A stretch of 64,000 bases of DNA from Nodularia sp. LEGE 06071 (lineage in GTDB: Bacteria > Cyanobacteriota > Cyanobacteriia > Cyanobacteriales > Nostocaceae). The position numbers and the translations under genes were made by a program. The notes beneath the pieces are model-generated. The model was not told the DNA's origin. It ran no database searches and saw nothing but the letters and a program-made list of their open reading frames with translations. Positions 5,502-32,403 of this stretch are shown here, piece by piece; positions within the stretch are counted from its first letter, which is position 1, and each line of letters opens with the position of its first letter. Where the stretch lies: the NCBI RefSeq assembly GCF_015207755.1, contig NZ_JADEWH010000001.1, forward strand, positions 124,001-188,000, given 5' to 3'.

Positions 5502-7484
5502 ATGCTGGCTCCTTTAAAAACAATCCGAGAAGCGTTCGCCAACGGCGTGTCCAAGACACTCACCAACTGGTGGTCTGAATTCACACTCCAGACCAAACTT
5601 TTGGCTGTCGCCACCTTGGTAGTGTCATTGGTCATGAGTGGTCTAACCTTCTGGGCTGTGAATACAATTCAGCAAGATGCCCGGATGAATGATACCCGCT
5701 TTGGTCGTGACTTAGGACTACTGCTTGCGGCTAACGTTGCTCCCCTCATAGCTGATCATAATCTCACTGAAGTTGCCCAATTTTCCCAACGCTTCTACAG
5801 CACTACCTCTAGTGTGCGTTATATGCTCTACGCGGATCAAACTGGGAAAATATTTTTTGGCATTCCTTTTTGGGAACCAGAGGTAGAAAACTCCCTGACC
5901 ATTGAACGACGCATACAACTGCCAGAAGATTACACCAATGACCTGGAAAAGCCGATGGTGCGGCAACACATGACTCCATCTGGGGTAGTCACCGATGTAT
6001 TTATCCCCCTGATTGTCGATCACAACTACCAGGGTGTCTTGGCCATTGGCATCAACCCCAACCAAACCGCAGTTATTTCCACTAATTTCACCCGCGATGT
6101 CACCATTGCCGTTTTTATCACGATTTGGGTAATGGTGATTTTGGCAGGAGTAATTAACGCGTTGACTATTACGAAGCCGATTAAAGAACTGCTGGTGGGA
6201 GTAAAACAAATTGCTGCGGGTAATTTCAAGCAGCGCATTGACTTACCGCTAGGAGGGGAACTCGGAGAGGTAATTCTCAGTTTTAATGAAATGGCAGAGC
6301 GTCTAGAGCGCTATGAAGAGCAAAATATTGAAGAATTAACCGCAGAAAAAGCCAAACTCGAAACCCTAGTTTCTACAATCGCCGATGGTGCTGTGTTAAT
6401 TGATAACAGTATGCAGGTGATTTTAGTTAATCCCACAGCGCGGCGCATTTTTGGCTGGGAAGGCATAAAAGTTGAGGGTTGCAATGTTTTACATCATTTG
6501 CCCTCAGCCGTGCAGATGGAAATTAGCCGTCCCTTGTCGGAAATGGCCGCCGGTGAATGTGAAAGTGCCGAGTTCCGGATTCATTTGAACGAAGCCACTA
6601 AGCGCACCGTCCGCATTCTCTTGACTACTGTACTCAACCTGCAAAGAGAGAGCATCAAAGGTATTGCCATCACTGTCCAGGATATTACTCGTGAGGTAGA
6701 ACTGAATGAGGCCAAAAGCCAATTTATCAGCAACGTTTCTCACGAATTACGCACGCCTCTGTTTAATATCAAATCCTTCATTGAAACTTTGCATGAGTAT
6801 GGCGAAGATTTGAGTGTAGAACAACGACAGGATTTTCTCCAAACTGTCAATAATGAAACCGACAGACTCACCCGTTTAGTTAACGATGTTTTGGATTTGT
6901 CCAAACTCGAATCTGGACGCAGCTACAACTTTGGTGGGGTAGACTTAGCCCAAGCCATCGACCAAACCCTGCGGACTTACCAATTGAATGCTAGGGACAA
7001 AGGTATTGAACTCATTCAGGAATTACCCGTGGATTTACCCTTAGTCTTGGGTAATTATGATTTATTGTTGCAAGTCTTAGCTAATTTGGTCGGTAATTCT
7101 CTCAAATTCTCTGAGTCTGGTGGTCAAGTTGCAATTCGCGCCTACCAATTAGATCCCAAGCCGAACTCACACAATCAGCAGGCTCATGTGCGGGTGGAAA
7201 TCTCCGATACTGGTATTGGCATTGCCACAGAAGACCAACAGGCAATTTTTGACCGTTTTTTCCGTGTAGAAAACCGAGTTCACACCCTAGAAGGTACTGG
7301 CTTGGGTTTATCCATTGTGAGAAACATCATGGAACGGCATCGTAGTCAAATGCATCTGGTGAGTGAAGTGGGAGTGGGTACTACTTTTTGGTTCGATTTA
7401 ACTTTATTTGAAGAACAGCCAAAGATGCTAGTTGATTCTCCGGCGGAAACCATCACAATTCCTACAGTCTCAGGATTGGGCTGA
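5502..7484 (+). CDS. nblS: Sensor histidine kinase NblS (DspA/Hik33 family)
   Basis: 660 residues from ATG 5502; a TTG three codons upstream is an alternative. Order: transmembrane segment at about 35-57, a periplasmic sensor region, a second transmembrane segment at about 200-223, HAMP, PAS (about 285-395), HisKA with phospho-acceptor H414 in NVSHELRTPLFNIKS, and HATPase (NLVGNSLKFSE, DTGIGI, GTGLGLSIV). The sequence around AANVAPLIADHNLTEVAQF and IFFGIPFWEPEVENSLTI is characteristic of cyanobacterial NblS. This essential kinase controls high-light, nutrient-stress and phycobilisome-degradation responses, usually with RpaB. No response regulator is adjacent, as is normal for this kinase. Confidence 0.94.
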   Translation: MLAPLKTIREAFANGVSKTLTNWWSEFTLQTKLLAVATLVVSLVMSGLTFWAVNTIQQDARMNDTRFGRDLGLLLAANVAPLIADHNLTEVAQFSQRFYSTTSSVRYMLYADQTGKIFFGIPFWEPEVENSLTIERRIQLPEDYTNDLEKPMVRQHMTPSGVVTDVFIPLIVDHNYQGVLAIGINPNQTAVISTNFTRDVTIAVFITIWVMVILAGVINALTITKPIKELLVGVKQIAAGNFKQRIDLPLGGELGEVILSFNEMAERLERYEEQNIEELTAEKAKLETLVSTIADGAVLIDNSMQVILVNPTARRIFGWEGIKVEGCNVLHHLPSAVQMEISRPLSEMAAGECESAEFRIHLNEATKRTVRILLTTVLNLQRESIKGIAITVQDITREVELNEAKSQFISNVSHELRTPLFNIKSFIETLHEYGEDLSVEQRQDFLQTVNNETDRLTRLVNDVLDLSKLESGRSYNFGGVDLAQAIDQTLRTYQLNARDKGIELIQELPVDLPLVLGNYDLLLQVLANLVGNSLKFSESGGQVAIRAYQLDPKPNSHNQQAHVRVEISDTGIGIATEDQQAIFDRFFRVENRVHTLEGTGLGLSIVRNIMERHRSQMHLVSEVGVGTTFWFDLTLFEEQPKMLVDSPAETITIPTVSGLG

Positions 7485-17904: not shown

Positions 17905-20490
17905 CTATTTAGATTTTGCTTCCAAACCTTCTAAGCGACTTTTCAGTTCTTGATTTTGTTGCTTGATTTGGTCGAGTTCCTCACGCATCTGGCGCAGTGC
18001 ATTGTCTGTACCCACATTCTTTTGCACCTTGGAAATTTCTTCTTCCGCATAGCGACGCACACGCCCATCTGGTGTTTGGTCGGCTAGCGATCGCAAAATT
18101 CCCATAGCTTTGCGAGTTTCCATTTGTCCCAAGGCTATAACTACAGCAACTTGGGTGAGAAAGAAGGTTTCTTTGGCTAGTTCTGCTAACTTTTCTAAAA
18201 TCCGTTCTAAATTCACCGGACTTTGACCCACAGAAATCTTGCCTAAAGCCCGAATTGTGGCTAGACGTAATGGTTGTGGTACACCCAGTTTCGTGTATTC
18301 TAGCAGCAGGTTTACAGCAGCTTCCGAAGTTTTCAGTTCAGCTAAACCAACCACTGCACCACTCCGCACCACTTCATTCCAACCCGCCTTTGATTCTAAA
18401 ACGGATTGCAGCAGCTTGATTACTTTTTCTTCCTTGGGTTTGTCTGCCAAATTCACAGATGCGATTGACCCCACAGCCCGACAAGCGGCTGCTTCCACGT
18501 AGTAACTGGGATCGCCATTTTTGACCAACTTTTTCACAGCTTTGTAACTGTCATGGGTTTTGATGGTCGCCAGTGCTTCGACTACAGAACGCCGCACATA
18601 AGCATTTTGGTCTTGTAATCCAGGAACTAACCCATCAAAGGCTTGATCTAACTTAATTTCTGCCAGTTGTTTAGCAGCTTCGACCTGCACACCCCAAAAG
18701 GAATCATTTTTCAGTGCAGCTGATAGGGCAATGGTAGCTTCTAATCCGCCTTTTTTTGCTAAAGCTTCGGCTGCATAGATCCGAGAAATGGGGTTAGGGT
18801 CAAATTCTAACTGTGCTTTCAACTCTGGAACTGAATATTCCAAAGTCACAGTTTTGAGGAAATGATTTCCCACATCAAAGCTGACAAATTGGGGCTTTTC
18901 TGCTAGGGGAAAGTAAAAGCTTTGTTCCCGTTCATTCACCCGCACAGTGAAAGTGGTGATTTGTGGAGGTTTACCCAGTTGATTGTAGCCAAAACCAATG
19001 GGGATTTTCAGATCAAACAAATCTTTGCTATCATTCTTGTCAGCTTGGGTTTGAGTGACTGTGACTTTCGCCAAATTAGCATCTCCATCCCAAGAGTAAG
19101 CTACTTTAAAATCGGGATGACCACCACGATAAACGTATTGATCGAACAGGTATGCCAAATTACGCCCGGTAGCCTTTTCAATGGCGCGGAGTAAGTCTAC
19201 TGTTTCTACAGTTTTATGGGCATTATCTTGGACAAAACTTTGAATTGCTGGCCAAAATAATTCTTCTCCTAATTCCGCCCGAATCATGTGATAAACACAA
19301 GACCCTTTTTCGTAGATATGGCGGTCATAAAGTTCTATGGCTTCCCGGTAAACATGAGTTACCATCGGGCGGCGGTAGCGGTGGCTATCTTCGCTTAAGT
19401 AACTTCTCGCTTCTAATAATCGATAGTATGCGGCTTCTTGGTCGCCATATTCGTGTTCTGTCCACATAACTTCCGAATAGGAAGCCATACCTTCCTTAAT
19501 CCAAGCATGAGACCAATGTTTAATTACGATTAAGTCACCAAACCACTGGTGCGCTAATTCGTGAACAACTAAACTTTCTGTGCCACGGTTATCTAAAGTG
19601 GCGCGTTCATCGAGTAAACATCTATCTGTTAGTAGGGTTGTGGAAGTATTTTCCATCCCACCAAAGATGAAATCATCTACACAAACTTGGGCATATTTAG
19701 GAAAAGCATAAGCATAACCATACTTTTCGCTCAAAAACTCGATCATGCGGGGAGTTTTGCCCATGCTGCGTTTAGCATCGTCCTTTCTACCCTTTTCTAC
19801 GTAGTAGGTGACGGGTTTACCTTGCCATTCATCACGAATTTCGGCAAAGTCACCTACTGCTAAGGTCATTAAGTAGGTAGGATGAATCTGCTGTTGTGAC
19901 CAATGGTAGATTTTTTCATCCCCATCTTTTTGGGTGTCAATCAGTTCGCCGTTGGAAATAGCAATTAAATCTTTGGGAACCCGTACCCGAATTTCGGAAG
20001 TAGAAAGTTGTCCGGGATAGTCGAAGCAGGGAAACCAGAAACGAGAGTCTTCGTCTTCGCCTTGTGTCCAGACTTGGGTGGGCTTGTTGGGGTAGTGTTT
20101 GTCTGGTTGAATAAAGTATATACCGCGTTGAGGCTTTTCCACTGAGTAGGCGATCGCAATCAACAAATGCTGACCAATCTGCGTTGGTTGAGAAAGTTGA
20201 ATCACCAGATGTTCGCCGTTATAGTCAAAATCCTGCGCTATCTCGTCTACCTGTACAGATTGGATATTTAAGTTGACAGCATCCAAAGTCAAACGGTCAA
20301 TACCATTGCGGATCGGCAACAGGCGAATGCTGCAACTACCGTGGTAACTTTGGTGAGGAATATCCAAGCACAGATCGAGAAAAATATGCTCTACTTGTCC
20401 AGGGCGGTCTGGGTTGTAATGCGGTCTAGCGCCTGGTAATTCAAAAGATTTATGACCGTTATTGTTTGTATCAAAATAAAACTGCGACAT
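17905..20490 (-). CDS. M1-family aminopeptidase with C-terminal HEAT repeats
   Basis: 861 residues. A zinc aminopeptidase with the substrate motif GGMENTST and the zinc motif HELAHQW (H310, E311, H314, plus E333 with the family spacing of 18 residues). After residue about 560 come tandem HEAT-like repeats (LEATIALSAALKNDSFWGVQVEAAKQLAEI..., DQNAYVRRSVVEALATIK). The chain ends in a coiled coil (LRQMREELDQIKQQNQELKS). It resembles PepN-like enzymes that trim N-terminal residues from peptides. No signal peptide, so cytosolic. ATG start. Its TAG stop is contiguous with a CAATGAC heptamer array. Confidence 0.95.
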   Translation of the reverse strand: MSQFYFDTNNNGHKSFELPGARPHYNPDRPGQVEHIFLDLCLDIPHQSYHGSCSIRLLPIRNGIDRLTLDAVNLNIQSVQVDEIAQDFDYNGEHLVIQLSQPTQIGQHLLIAIAYSVEKPQRGIYFIQPDKHYPNKPTQVWTQGEDEDSRFWFPCFDYPGQLSTSEIRVRVPKDLIAISNGELIDTQKDGDEKIYHWSQQQIHPTYLMTLAVGDFAEIRDEWQGKPVTYYVEKGRKDDAKRSMGKTPRMIEFLSEKYGYAYAFPKYAQVCVDDFIFGGMENTSTTLLTDRCLLDERATLDNRGTESLVVHELAHQWFGDLIVIKHWSHAWIKEGMASYSEVMWTEHEYGDQEAAYYRLLEARSYLSEDSHRYRRPMVTHVYREAIELYDRHIYEKGSCVYHMIRAELGEELFWPAIQSFVQDNAHKTVETVDLLRAIEKATGRNLAYLFDQYVYRGGHPDFKVAYSWDGDANLAKVTVTQTQADKNDSKDLFDLKIPIGFGYNQLGKPPQITTFTVRVNEREQSFYFPLAEKPQFVSFDVGNHFLKTVTLEYSVPELKAQLEFDPNPISRIYAAEALAKKGGLEATIALSAALKNDSFWGVQVEAAKQLAEIKLDQAFDGLVPGLQDQNAYVRRSVVEALATIKTHDSYKAVKKLVKNGDPSYYVEAAACRAVGSIASVNLADKPKEEKVIKLLQSVLESKAGWNEVVRSGAVVGLAELKTSEAAVNLLLEYTKLGVPQPLRLATIRALGKISVGQSPVNLERILEKLAELAKETFFLTQVAVVIALGQMETRKAMGILRSLADQTPDGRVRRYAEEEISKVQKNVGTDNALRQMREELDQIKQQNQELKSRLEGLEAKSK

Positions 20491-20810
20491 TGATGATTAC
20501 TGACCTTTTAATCCTGAAGAGTCTGTTTAGACGTATTTAAATGCTATCCGGTTAATCTCCCAAATTACAGCAGGTTTCAACTATTTAGTTTTGCCATTTG
20601 CTTGGTAAGGATATTTGCATGACAATTTTCGTTAAAGAAATCTAATATATATTTAATCTAATTTTTTGTCATTAATAGTCAGCATTTCCGGAAATTTGGC
20701 GCAGGTTTAAGAGAATTGGCTTTGCTTATTTGCTGAATTTTTGGTTCACGGTCAAAATTCGAGGTGCAGTAACCAAGCCATGTTTTTCGCCATTAGTCCC
20801 AGCAATTCCT

Positions 20811-20903
20811 ATTCAAGTGAGGTACAAGCAGTAATAATTAAACGCAGATGGACGCAGATAAACGCGGATAGTTTTGGACTTTATTAGACTGGGAAATGCT
20901 ATA
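20811..20903. repeat. Dispersed repeat, copy 2 (reverse orientation)
   Basis: This is the reverse complement of the element at 3531-3622, with only scattered differences. It begins ATTCAAGTGAGGTAC and ends GGGAAATGCTATA. It lies in the 603-bp spacer 20491-21093 downstream of the first precursor-like gene. I see no gene in the rest of that spacer. Confidence 0.85.
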
Positions 20904-21093: not shown

Positions 21094-21372
21094 TTAATTA
21101 AGTAATAAACTCAAAGGAAACTGAATCGAAAATCCCAGTGCTTGTGCCTGTAATACTGCTACTGTTCCTGCTGCTTCTGCTGCTGCTGCTGCTGCTTCTG
21201 CTTCTTCTCTTCCCGGAATGAGTAAATCAGCAGGAAACGCATCCAAAATCGACAGGGAGAACAATCCACCAACTGCGCTATCTTGCTGTGCCAAATTGAG
21301 CGGTTCAAATAGTGGCTTTGTATTACAGTTTAGCTGTTGTGGATTTGTTAGTTTTTGTTCGTTGTTTTTCAT
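21094..21372 (-). CDS. Double-glycine-leader peptide precursor 1
   Basis: 92 residues from the ATG at 21372. The leader (residues 1-36) reads MKNNEQKLTNPQQLNCNTKP then LFEPLNLAQQDSAVGG. It ends in the Gly-Gly motif recognised by C39 peptidase/ABC exporters of bacteriocins and many RiPPs. The 56-residue core is Ala/Glu-rich in the middle (REEAEAAAAAAEAAGTVAVL), hydrophobic at the end, and has no cysteine. The leader is nearly identical to that of the next gene while the core is unrelated, the usual sign of a modular precursor family. An upstream in-frame start at 21525 would give 143 residues. I prefer 21372 because only from there do both copies match as proteins of equal length. No exporter or modifying enzyme is nearby. 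Confidence 0.75.
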   Translation of the reverse strand: MKNNEQKLTNPQQLNCNTKPLFEPLNLAQQDSAVGGLFSLSILDAFPADLLIPGREEAEAAAAAAEAAGTVAVLQAQALGFSIQFPLSLLLN

Positions 21373-22060
21373 TTTGTTAATCTTTAAAGCTATGTGAACG
21401 ACTACACAAATACCAGGATAGGGGTACAGGGTGGGTTTTCCCCAACAGAAATGCCTGAGTTGCTGCGTAGCTTCTTTGGTTTTATATTCCCTGTAGGGGC
21501 AGGAGTCCCGATTCTCAAGATCCAAAAAATAAACTAAGTAATGTTTTAGTTTACACGTAATAATTTAGCATAGAAATCTTGTATAAATATAACCGCAGCC
21601 TCATATTTGAGGACACTTTTCATTGATCAGGACTCTGACACTGGTTTTATACTTAGTAATTCCAATTTAGCTATACATTTCTAGCTGCTTTTGTTTAGCT
21701 GTGAATACCGTCATAGTTACGATATTTAGCCATATCCCCCTTTTTTTGCTCCTGCGATATTTACAGTGCTGTTATTTAGCAGCTTGTAGCATTTTATGAC
21801 CAAAAAATGTCTGGATGATTATTTTGAGTGATCAAATCGCGATTCTCTCCACACCACACAAAAAGGTGATAAAGTAGCTTGGGACACATTTAAAACGGCT
21901 CAGGGGCGGAAATGGTGGGCAAATCGGCGATACCCCTTTTAAAGTTTCATAAATTACTGTAACGTAAAGCACAAGTCCCCACTCTCAATGTACGCATAGG
22001 GTGGGGATTTTGAGCCGGTGATTCACGAAGTAAGGGTTGTAGAAGGCTACGCCACGCCAG
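21373..22060 (-). promoter_or_regulatory. Long conserved upstream region of precursor 1
   Basis: The region 5' to precursor 1 is conserved with that of precursor 2. Blocks include 21537-21580 (GTTTTAGTTTACACGTAATA, ATTTAGCATAGAA) and 21768-21792 (TTAGCAGCTTGTAGCAT), which have counterparts at 22565-22608 and 22797-22821. This suggests a shared promoter or structured leader RNA. I cannot place -35/-10 elements confidently. The part from about 21800 to 22060 shows nothing I can name except a GGCTACGCCACGCC repeat fragment near 22048. Confidence 0.5.
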
Positions 22061-22339
22061 CTATTGAGGTTCCACGGGACTGGGGGCTAAATTGATTGCA
22101 CAAATAAACGTTCCACAGGGACCAAAACCCTGCGGAAAAAGGTTAGGATTCGCCGGAACGTTAGGACTCGGTGGCACAAATCTAGTTGCAAGACCTACTG
22201 CTTGATTTAAAATCACTTCTGTGAAACTTTGACCACCAACTACGCTATCTTGCTCTTCCAATTTGAGGGGTTCAAATAGTGGCATTTTATTGCAGTTTAG
22301 CTGTTGTAGATTTGTGGGTTTTTGTTCGTGGTTTTTCAT
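22061..22339 (-). CDS. Double-glycine-leader peptide precursor 2
   Basis: 92 residues from the ATG at 22339, the same length as precursor 1. The leader is MKNHEQKPTNLQQLNCNKMP then LFEPLKLEEQDSVVGG, nearly matching that of precursor 1 and again ending in Gly-Gly at 36. The 56-residue core begins QSFTEVILNQAVGLATRF, is Pro/Asn-rich (PPSPNVPANPNLFPQ), has two cysteines (GPCGTFIC) and ends SPVEPQ. The two cysteines could form a disulphide after export (inference). An in-frame ATG 24 codons upstream exists. The surrounding about 750 bp appears to be a tandem duplicate of the precursor 1 region. Confidence 0.75.
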   Translation of the reverse strand: MKNHEQKPTNLQQLNCNKMPLFEPLKLEEQDSVVGGQSFTEVILNQAVGLATRFVPPSPNVPANPNLFPQGFGPCGTFICAINLAPSPVEPQ

Positions 22340-23025
22340 TTTGTTAATCTTTGAAATGATTTGAACTGCTAAACAATCACCCGGATAGGGGTAATTTGTG
22401 GGCTTTCCCATTCAACAGAAATGCCTGAGTTGCTCAATAGCTGCTTTGGTCTTATATTCTCTCTAGGGAAAAAAGTCTTGATTTTCAAGATTCAAGAATA
22501 AACTAATTGACATTTGTCACGCATTCCTTAATAGCTTGATTTTTGCTGGTAGGACTGGCGTATGAGTAATGTTTTAGTTTACACGTAATAATTTAGCATA
22601 GAAGTCTTAGATAAAGATGGACGTACTCGCATAATTTAGGACATTGTTATTCCTCAAAATCGGTAATTTTATGGGTTTTTACTTAATGATTAGCACTTGC
22701 TAATACATTGCTATGTTGTTTGATTTGGATGTGAATGAGCCACATTTAGTATGATTAGGCAGATTTTTCCTTTTTTGAGATGGCTATATTTAGGGTGATG
22801 TTACTTAGCAGCTTGTAACATATTTTTTCCAGAAGTCAGTTGGTACAATAAAACAAATATATGTTTAGTTTTGTGAAAATGTGAAACCCCCTATTGTCAA
22901 GCTATTAGCTTTCTTTACATTTCGTTATAGACATTTAAATTTTTCCGCCGACTTAGTTCTTGACTCGGTACATTGGGATATATATTCAGAAAAATTTTCT
23001 GTGCAAACCTGACCCCTAAATAGTA
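22340..23025 (-). promoter_or_regulatory. Long conserved upstream region of precursor 2
   Basis: Counterpart of the precursor 1 upstream region. It carries the conserved blocks 22565-22608 and 22797-22821, and a segment just before the start codon that still reads like a peptide-coding frame (22380-22500). The end nearest 23025 also contains whatever promotes the divergent acetyltransferase gene. Confidence 0.5.
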
Positions 23026-23514
23026 ATGAAAAACTATTATCAAGATTTTTTGATTCGTAACTGGGAGATAGGCGATCGCACCAGAGCAGCTTCTGTCGTC
23101 AGTTATGTATTATCAGAATATGGTCTGGGTTGGGAACCCAAGGGCGCAGACAAAGATGTGCTGCAAATAGAGGAATTTTACTTAGAAACTGGAGGTGAGT
23201 TTTGGGTAATCGAACACCAAAATCAGCTAGTTGGTACGGGGGCATATTACCCGATTAAACGTGGTAGAAAAGCTGTGGAAATCCGCAAAATGTATCTTTT
23301 ATCGAGTGTCAGAGGTTTAGGACTGGGGAAATATTTATTACAACAACTAGAAGCAGCGATCGCCAACCGTGGTTTTCAGGAAATTTGGATTGAAACCGCT
23401 AGTGTATTGGTGGAAGCAGTCAAACTGTATGAAAGCAATGGTTATCAAGCTGCAACGGGAGTAGAAACACCACGCTGCGATCGCGTATATATGAAATTGC
23501 TGCACAATAGTTAA
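23026..23514 (+). CDS. GNAT-family N-acetyltransferase
   Basis: 162 residues, the length of a single GNAT domain. The acetyl-CoA-binding motif A is KMYLLSSVRGLGLGKYLLQQLE, with the RGLGLG pyrophosphate loop. The core strand is IEIRKMYL-like and the C-terminal motif B region is AVKLYESNGYQAATG. It transfers an acetyl group from acetyl-CoA to an amine of unknown identity. It could modify the nearby precursor peptides, but it is divergently transcribed and nothing else supports that. ATG start. The comF-like gene follows on the same strand after 45 bp. Confidence 0.9.
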   Translation: MKNYYQDFLIRNWEIGDRTRAASVVSYVLSEYGLGWEPKGADKDVLQIEEFYLETGGEFWVIEHQNQLVGTGAYYPIKRGRKAVEIRKMYLLSSVRGLGLGKYLLQQLEAAIANRGFQEIWIETASVLVEAVKLYESNGYQAATGVETPRCDRVYMKLLHNS

Positions 23515-31017: not shown

Positions 31018-32403
31018 ATGGCTGAAAACAGTATCGAAGGTAATGGCAATTGGTACTATACAGATGGTCAATGGATATCTGATGAAGGTGCCGATTTAAG
31101 TGTGGCTGATGCCTTCGCTAGTGGGAACCCCCCTGATGGTTATATTCCCGATAATATTTCTGATGCTACTAGTTTCGGCGACAGTAGCGGTGGTAATCCC
31201 TTTGGTGATGGTGGTGACAGTAGCGGTGGTAGTCCCTTTGCTGGGGGTAATCCCTTCATGAGCGGGGATGGAGGAAATGTGTCTACGACTAGTGAGGATG
31301 GCCAGTACAGCTACAACTACACTCGGACTGAGGACGAGCGCAGTTTAGCACCTGATGATAACAACCCCTTCGGTCAATTAATTGACATTCTCAGTCTTGA
31401 CAGTAACTCGTCTGATAGCGGTAGCAATTCTTTCGATGGTGGTAACGACTTAGCTGGAAACTTGCCTATTGGTAGCACCCCAGCCTCTTCAACAAATGAG
31501 AACGTCCTACCAGAAGCTCCTGAAGGTATATCTGTACCATACAATAGTGACAACTTGACAGTCGAAATGAACGATTTAGAATCTGGTGAACTTGGGATAA
31601 GTAATAGCGATAACACAGGTAATGGAAATGGCAATTCCTTCGGTGGTGGTAACGACTTAGCTGGAAACTTGCCTATTGGTAGCACCCCAGCCTCTTCAAC
31701 AAATGGGAACGTCCTACCAGAAGCTCCTGAAGGTATATCTGTACCATACAACAGTGATAATTGGATATCTGATCTCAAAGATTTAGAATCTGGTGAAACT
31801 GGTGCAAGCACTGAAGGTAACACAGGCAATGGAAATGGCAACTGGTTTTACGGAAGCAACAATACTGCCGATGGCAATGGCAATTGGTATTTTGGTAGTG
31901 GCAACACTACCGATGGTAATGGTAACTGGCAGTTAGGTGATAACAATACTGCCGATGGCAATGGCAACTGGGAGTTTGGTAGTGGCAACACCAGTGATGG
32001 CAATGGTAACTGGCAGTTAGGTGATAATAATACTGTTAACGGTAATGCCAACATACCTAGTGGCGATGGCAACAATATCAACGGTAATAGCAACATCCTC
32101 AGTGGTAATAGCAGCAATGTTCTTGGTAATACCAATACTTCCAACATTAATAATGGTAGTTTACTCGGTAATAGTATTGAGGCTACTGATGATGGCAAAG
32201 CATATATTGGTAACGAGGATTGGTCTTTCGATATCCTTGATGAACTGACATCCCTGGGGAGTGGTGTGTCGGGGGTTGGTAGTGATGTCAACAGTTTGTT
32301 GAGTCATCCTGATATAGTATCAACTACCACTAGCAAGGAAGGTTTTACTGATTCCCCCTTCTTAGCAAACTCGGATTATCAATTTGAATTTAGTGGTGTG
32401 TAG
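31018..32403 (+). CDS. Gly/Asn/Ser-rich repeat protein (probable beta-solenoid)
   Basis: 461 residues, not assignable to a named family. The N-terminal 20 residues (SIEGNGNWYYTDGQW) foreshadow the later repeats. Residues about 140-190 and 208-258 are near-identical 50-residue direct repeats (GGNDLAGNLPIGSTPASST ... VLPEAPEGISVPYNSDN). Residues about 270-375 are 14-residue repeats of consensus TxDGNGNWxxGxxN, which decay towards GNxNxLxG. This periodicity suits a right-handed parallel beta-helix, perhaps Ca-binding. No signal peptide or membrane segment and no cysteine; secretion by a type I system is possible but no C-terminal signal is recognised. Strong AAGGA ribosome-binding site. Confidence 0.85.
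   Translation: MAENSIEGNGNWYYTDGQWISDEGADLSVADAFASGNPPDGYIPDNISDATSFGDSSGGNPFGDGGDSSGGSPFAGGNPFMSGDGGNVSTTSEDGQYSYNYTRTEDERSLAPDDNNPFGQLIDILSLDSNSSDSGSNSFDGGNDLAGNLPIGSTPASSTNENVLPEAPEGISVPYNSDNLTVEMNDLESGELGISNSDNTGNGNGNSFGGGNDLAGNLPIGSTPASSTNGNVLPEAPEGISVPYNSDNWISDLKDLESGETGASTEGNTGNGNGNWFYGSNNTADGNGNWYFGSGNTTDGNGNWQLGDNNTADGNGNWEFGSGNTSDGNGNWQLGDNNTVNGNANIPSGDGNNINGNSNILSGNSSNVLGNTNTSNINNGSLLGNSIEATDDGKAYIGNEDWSFDILDELTSLGSGVSGVGSDVNSLLSHPDIVSTTTSKEGFTDSPFLANSDYQFEFSGV

Follow-up and report, generated by a model that had tools for sequence, protein, structure and literature searches.

Prochlorosins combine a conserved leader with unlike cores, an arrangement also seen in the two small genes, A and B, of the window, the whole 64-kb stretch of DNA analysed (G000 C1:124001-188000; host genome G000, 5.58 Mb, 54 contigs). 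Prochlorosins are described with a Nif11-type leader and a lanthionine-forming enzyme (PMC10783134), neither of which is found for A and B in the window. NHLP and N11P precursors with NHLM export (TIGR03794, TIGR03796, TIGR03797), as presented in PMC2887384, have the GG leader in common with the present family, whose leader relatives likewise adjoin ABC1, ABC2 and HlyD genes. Unlike them, the Nodularia leader has no NCBIfam precursor match, and no exporter of this kind, at the model cut-off, is encoded near A and B or among the nine C39 proteins of the host.

Bacteriocins of the CTB family (NF038167) are abundant in the same genus, and in Nodularia spumigena CCY9414 CTB genes are transcribed and are up under phosphate lack (nsp31980), according to PMC3610870 and PMC9846622. 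The last 17 residues of the A/B leader resemble CTB leaders (9/17 identical; hhalign probability only 22, E 0.001), and G001 has a CTB gene that protein A matches (E 3.8e-4). The leaders of A and B differ from the CTB type by 19 further residues before the shared part, by unlike cores and by lack of exporter clustering. EbfG1-4 and PteB of Synechococcus elongatus are functionally alike: small GG-leader proteins are cut and exported by a C39 transporter, with processing tested by mutation and mass spectrometry, and mature EbfG is reported by the authors of PMC4997328 to have no homology to other cyanobacterial proteins. This likeness to A and B is in mode of working and is set by description, not by sequence comparison.

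For the DNA upstream of both genes, the described counterpart is a PATE-like IS200/IS605 derivative in which the right end is complete and the final 58 nt of tnpB remain (PMC7290912). The copies studied here likewise cover the tnpB 3' end and the right end; those in the window differ in being decayed, in lacking tnpA and tnpB and in being repeated together with a peptide leader. TnpB elements are described as making a guide omegaRNA from the tnpB mRNA (PMC10278001).

Wang et al. 2011 list 290 putative precursors near exporters in 58 cyanobacterial genomes, with seven clusters in CCY9414 (PMC3140520). Many double-glycine peptides of cyanobacteria are still without exporter and role. Among open-licence PubMed Central articles, judged by title and abstract start, none was recognised as treating the present leader family or a peptide gene preceded by a TnpB right end. 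The general kind is familiar, with a conserved N-terminal GG leader (12 aligned sequences) on a small 56-residue core; the leader family and the transposon-derived upstream region seem to be undescribed.

Description of genes A and B

Gene A (21094-21372, stop codon 21094-21096) and gene B (22061-22339, stop codon 22061-22063) lie on the minus strand. Translation of the window gives 92 codons each, in agreement with the sequence-only reading, which had proposed two 92-residue genes with unlike 56-residue cores. Leader A (21265..21372) and leader B (22232..22339) have 36 codons and a GG end. Core A (21097..21264) is Ala/Glu-rich, without Cys; its type is recognisable in G001 and G002. Core B (22064..22231) is Pro/Asn-rich, with two Cys; the B-type core of G002 has the same C-terminal end. 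The leaders had been called nearly identical; length and GG end bear this out, and the wording is a little strong at 75% identity as protein (88% as DNA). Cores A and B give no overall alignment, and coincidence is limited to scattered residues. The proposal that a single type of double-glycine leader stands on unlike cores is supported; 12 aligned leaders show conservation through the GG. Both start codons, ATG at 21372 and at 22339, are matched in 3/3 other genus copies. A longer protein with an upstream start is rejected: the extended frame is broken by a one-base difference in gene B of G002.

No family match is given by A or B in Pfam, NCBIfam or PHROGs. No NCBIfam precursor model, NHLP and Nif11-type included, matches either protein at E up to 10, nor does the CTB model NF038167 (cut-off 32 bits) at the same E. 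Membership of CTB, NHLP or Nif11 is rejected on the lack of NCBIfam match and the weak hhalign of the leaders. The leader, called unfamiliar from the sequence alone, is so in having no precursor-model match, less so in its last 17 residues, which recall the CTB-bacteriocin leaders of the genus. Matches of Escherichia plasmids to the Ala-codon repeat of core A are taken as low complexity, and leader B gives no useful match against plasmids. No relative is confirmed by tblastn in scans of genome contigs and viral contigs, from which near records are possibly left out.

The pair is flanked by a gene at 17905-20490, presumably a PepN-like aminopeptidase, and by a gene at 23026-23514 that looks like a GNAT acetyltransferase. 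Besides the precursors, no large frame is present between 20491 and 23025. A stretch at 20801-20903 is ~74-91% identical to sites on several Nostocales plasmids and is likely a dispersed repeat. Another frame, elsewhere in the window (31018-32403), encodes 461 residues; Gly, Asn and Ser are abundant in it, and repeats like DGNGNWxxGxxNT occur.

When compared with itself, the intergenic DNA shows a tandem repeat on the minus strand, unit A at 21266..21795 and unit B at 22233..22824, each holding leader, relic (described below) and further upstream DNA. Homology begins at 21266 (A) and 22233 (B), in each case within the codon for the final Gly of the leader, and extends upstream for ~530 bp (A) and ~590 bp (B), far beyond chance and not into the cores. 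Identity is 82.5% in the near part and 70.8% in the far part. Leader DNA is 88-90% identical between A and B within a genome and 85% identical between orthologues; this excess, some three of 108 bases, is too small for a claim that gene conversion has acted on the leader.

Leader relatives outside the genus

A leader restricted to this locus would have spoken against the sequence-only reading. The leader is carried by 3/5 genus genomes and by 4/27 genomes of another family. A profile of the five genus proteins matches 7/340 genomes of the order at E 0.01 or better. Accepted are the host, G001 and G319, the last a member of the other family in which a single contig matches the leader at three places (E 2.4e-8, 5.2e-8, 1.5e-4). 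G372, G193, G262 and G374 (E 0.004-0.009) are not accepted as leader relatives; of 18 genomes with leader matches in another search, the 15 at E 0.1-0.95 are not accepted as real. Against the family of G319, the leader profile matches G319, G327 (2.7e-11), G316 (3.3e-7) and G240 (3.3e-6, 1.2e-5), a count of 4/27 that includes G319 itself, which had supplied rows to that profile. In a sample of the phylum 4/386 genomes are matched, the host and G001 being accepted; the weak matches in G596 and G555 are not. The 12 aligned leaders, from seven genomes, have 32-39 residues, most about 36, and share a final motif near LQPLxLxQLDxVxGG, with GA as the last two residues in one of them. Outside the genus there are eight cores, 9-19 residues in length, which show no likeness to one another.

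NHLP-type export genes stand beside the leader in 3/4 other-family genomes, above NCBIfam cut-offs. In G240 (L207), ABC1 matches over the whole model, C39 included, at 1157.6 bits (cut-off 853.3), the HlyD-type gene at 328.3 (cut-off 156.2) and ABC2 at 983.5 (cut-off 709.4). G327 (L205) has ABC2 at 1017.3 and HlyD at 345.8. In G319, ABC1 is cut by the contig end (867.5, L146), and ABC2 (1002) is on L208, which holds another leader. G316 (L206) has a nif11-class radical SAM maturase at 837.1 (cut-off 725); no exporter is seen on its 10-kb contig. The adjacency of NHLP-type export genes to these leaders is the strongest evidence for the leader as an export signal. The leader of A and B is most likely such a signal, export itself being putative.

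The loci L146, L205, L206, L207 and L208 hold a precursor family with a ~36-residue leader, unlike cores of 9-19 residues and adjacent export or maturase genes. L146 251-2104 encodes a fusion of a PvcA-like isonitrile synthase with a TauD-type oxygenase; three leader peptides lie on this locus, the first at a distance of 0.4 kb. A 2OG-Fe(II) oxygenase also adjoins the G319 leaders.

Exporters of the host

The host genome has nine C39 domains. Those on the contig of the window lie at 6185, 481380, 489117 and 539470; none of the nine is within the window, which upholds the earlier description of A and B as orphans with no exporter or tailoring enzyme nearby. The genes being orphan, an exporter encoded elsewhere would have to serve them. 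The NHLP-exporter cut-off is reached by 0/9 host C39 proteins, the HlyB-type model is passed by 2/9. Among the proteins compared, a C4-type short exporter is present in the host and G002 only, a C7-type short exporter in 5/5 genus genomes and a C10 type in 4/5 (not G003). The C7 and C10 types occur in all three module carriers and are therefore the likeliest exporters for A and B, co-occurrence in five genomes saying little. On host contig C4 (L083 5035-11205), three genes follow one another, for a small Cys-rich frame of GG type, for a presumably LanM-like enzyme of 1103 residues and for a C39 exporter; this is likely a lanthipeptide cluster of the host.

Proposed mechanism

Genes A and B are probably orphan precursors of two small exported peptides, cut after the GG by a C39 exporter encoded elsewhere. 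Transcription would enter from or above the relic, and the precursor would be made. The 36-residue leader would dock on an ABC exporter, whose C39 peptidase domain would recognise it; a cut after GG would release the 56-residue core from the cell. Core A would be a Cys-free Ala/Glu-rich peptide, core B a Pro-rich peptide with a possible disulfide. The pair would have formed as a tandem repeat of one unit, right-end relic plus leader, joined to two different cores. Once the repeat had formed, the cores would have diverged quickly, in the way that peptides with antagonistic or cell-surface roles are expected to. Such rapid divergence is consistent with strains antagonising one another, or with a role at the surface like that described for EbfG in PMC4997328.

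Several findings count against the export reading: no exporter or tailoring gene lies near; the cores have 56 residues against 9-19 in the relatives; two of the five genus genomes are without the module; no host C39 protein is NHLP-type above cut-off; and the likeness to CTB leaders is weak (hhalign probability 22). Expression or peptide support for A and B was not found, and the main text on CCY9414 gives no start-site position for gene A.

The A/B leader family is absent from three profile libraries; one lineage has export genes adjacent to it, a second has orphan members with longer cores. The family is a testable case of precursors outliving or changing their exporters.

Copies within the genus and rate of change

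Leader carriers are the host, G001 and G002. Both A and B are present in the host and G002, only A in G001, the position being shared by all three. G003 and G004 are without the module, their two flanking genes being 513 and 322 bp apart. Core A type and core B type are each recognisable across species and are thus two lasting types, not a hypervariable set. In four orthologue pairs, core dN is 0.26-0.47 and dN/dS 0.46-0.86, leader dN 0.13-0.15 and dN/dS 0.29-0.53; in two pairs of the neighbouring GNAT-like gene, dN is 0.034-0.035 and dN/dS 0.10-0.11. These values are rough, the stretches being short and gapped. Amino-acid sites of the cores change ~10 times faster than those of the neighbouring gene. 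Silent sites change more than amino-acid sites in both leader and core, so the reading frames are real. Of the cores described as diversifying, the fast change stands; the two lasting types in the genus and a dN/dS below 1 speak for less than the word implies.

It is unlikely that A and B are leftovers of a former NHLP-type cluster, with export and tailoring genes lost and precursors drifting. The want of an NHLP-type exporter among the host C39 proteins, the absence of the module from G003 and G004 and of B from G001, and a core dN/dS of up to 0.86 would suit such decay. All five genus copies, from three species, nevertheless keep the open frame, the start, the GG end and the leader spacing, and the leader dN/dS amounts to constraint on the very part that an exporter would read. 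Retention of GG end and spacing also argues against intracellular small proteins that inherited the GG from a leader and are no longer cut, as does the adjacency of the same leader to export genes in the other family. The orphan position, the lack of a demonstrable exporter link within the genus and cores much longer than those of the relatives are in line with an intracellular role, which is quite improbable. The export reading is preferred to both.

Upstream region

The DNA upstream of both genes is a relic of an IS200/IS605-type TnpB right end, overlooked in the sequence-only reading. Relic A (21394..21526, minus strand; E 3.1e-15) is without an internal ~60 bp that the other copies have in the alignment; relic B is at 22362..22558 (minus strand; E 9.6e-14). 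For a profile of 24 copies from other genera these are the only two significant matches in the 64-kb window, the next match having E 1.6. Both places are also found by two separate profiles, one of 9 tnpB-linked copies alone (E 6e-9, 3.2e-5), the other of 10 solo copies alone (E 1.9e-14, 2.4e-12). The reversed window, as control, gives nothing below E 0.9. The relic profile also matches the copies of G001 and G002 (E 6e-25, 1e-12, 5e-12), and has no match in the syntenic stretches of G003, G004 and G010. The five genus copies resemble one another over the ~300 bp that precede each ATG, the ~60-bp gap of host relic A excepted. The relic is on the same strand as the gene and ends 21-22 bp before the ATG. 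A palindromic box, TTACGTGTAAAC, stands above relic A (21549..21560) and relic B (22577..22588), on the minus strand; in the five-copy alignment it is exact in 3/5 and one or two bases off in the rest. It is a possible, candidate regulator site.

The RNA fold z is -1.5 for relic B and -1.0 for the G001 copy; a solo copy and a tnpB-linked copy, folded for comparison, both give -3.5. With no tnpA or tnpB of its own and a weak right-end fold, the upstream DNA is classed as a relic, not as an element. Between host A and B, relic and leader are 75-94% alike and the DNA further up 43-69%; A of G000 and A of G002 are just as alike further up (88-97%). That the repeat is decaying transposon DNA with chance open frames is scarcely credible: the DNA upstream of both frames is transposon-derived, with a level of conservation between copies close to that of the leader DNA, but the relic stops short of each ATG, the other-family genomes share the leader protein while the upstream profile matches there only around the leader start, and substitutions favour silent sites.

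For the relic before A and B, with its decayed fold, a promoter or 5'-untranslated role is possible and a surviving guide RNA unlikely. No Rfam match reaches the gathering threshold in the window, one match in 21373-22700 being at chance level (E 4.7), and a known RNA upstream is rejected. A scan for sigma-70-like promoters finds 8 sites, where shuffled sequences give 6.5. That the repeat ends so sharply at the GG, and that a relic precedes each gene, suggests a concrete way in which new cores may acquire copies of a leader and its control region. In an extended and rather unlikely form, the TnpB right end would have been taken over as 5' control region, relic and leader making an "express-and-export" cassette copied by tandem duplication and recombination, and any core joined behind the GG would be expressed and exported at once. 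Its boldest version, a relic that still yields a guide-type RNA regulating A and B, is unlikely. Were the relic only a passenger, A and B would be an ordinary orphan precursor pair.

Distribution of the right-end element

The profile of the genus upstream stretch matches a site in G073 at E 1.2e-22. The G073 element is matched in 42/148 genomes of the order at E 1e-6 or better; its copy numbers are lower bounds, with few candidates scored per genome. A tnpB match lies at or near the copy in 9/30 fetched copies (three confirmed with Pfam) and is not found for the other 21. Six scanned neighbours of tnpB-less copies are five enzymes and one hexapeptide-repeat protein. Of 22 copy ends checked, 19 have TAGTTCAC, 2 a close variant and 1 neither, with unlike DNA beyond. 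In the copy alignment, the tnpB 3' end makes up the first part and the right end the rest. Some solo copies stop within 30 bp of a possible start codon (e.g. L154, L157, L159, L160), so that the position of the relic may partly reflect landing sites.

The loci L148-L177 hold a ~200-bp element of tnpB 3' end plus right end, a non-autonomous repeat of TnpB type that is widely spread in cyanobacteria. G001 has a TnpB-type gene (L024 7630-8868; Pfam OrfB_IS605, Cas12f1-like TNB) ~2.5 kb from precursor A. On host contig C2, another solo right-end fragment (L209 2681-2754) is matched at E 1.7e-12; the 5 kb of sequence fetched there contain no match to tnpB.
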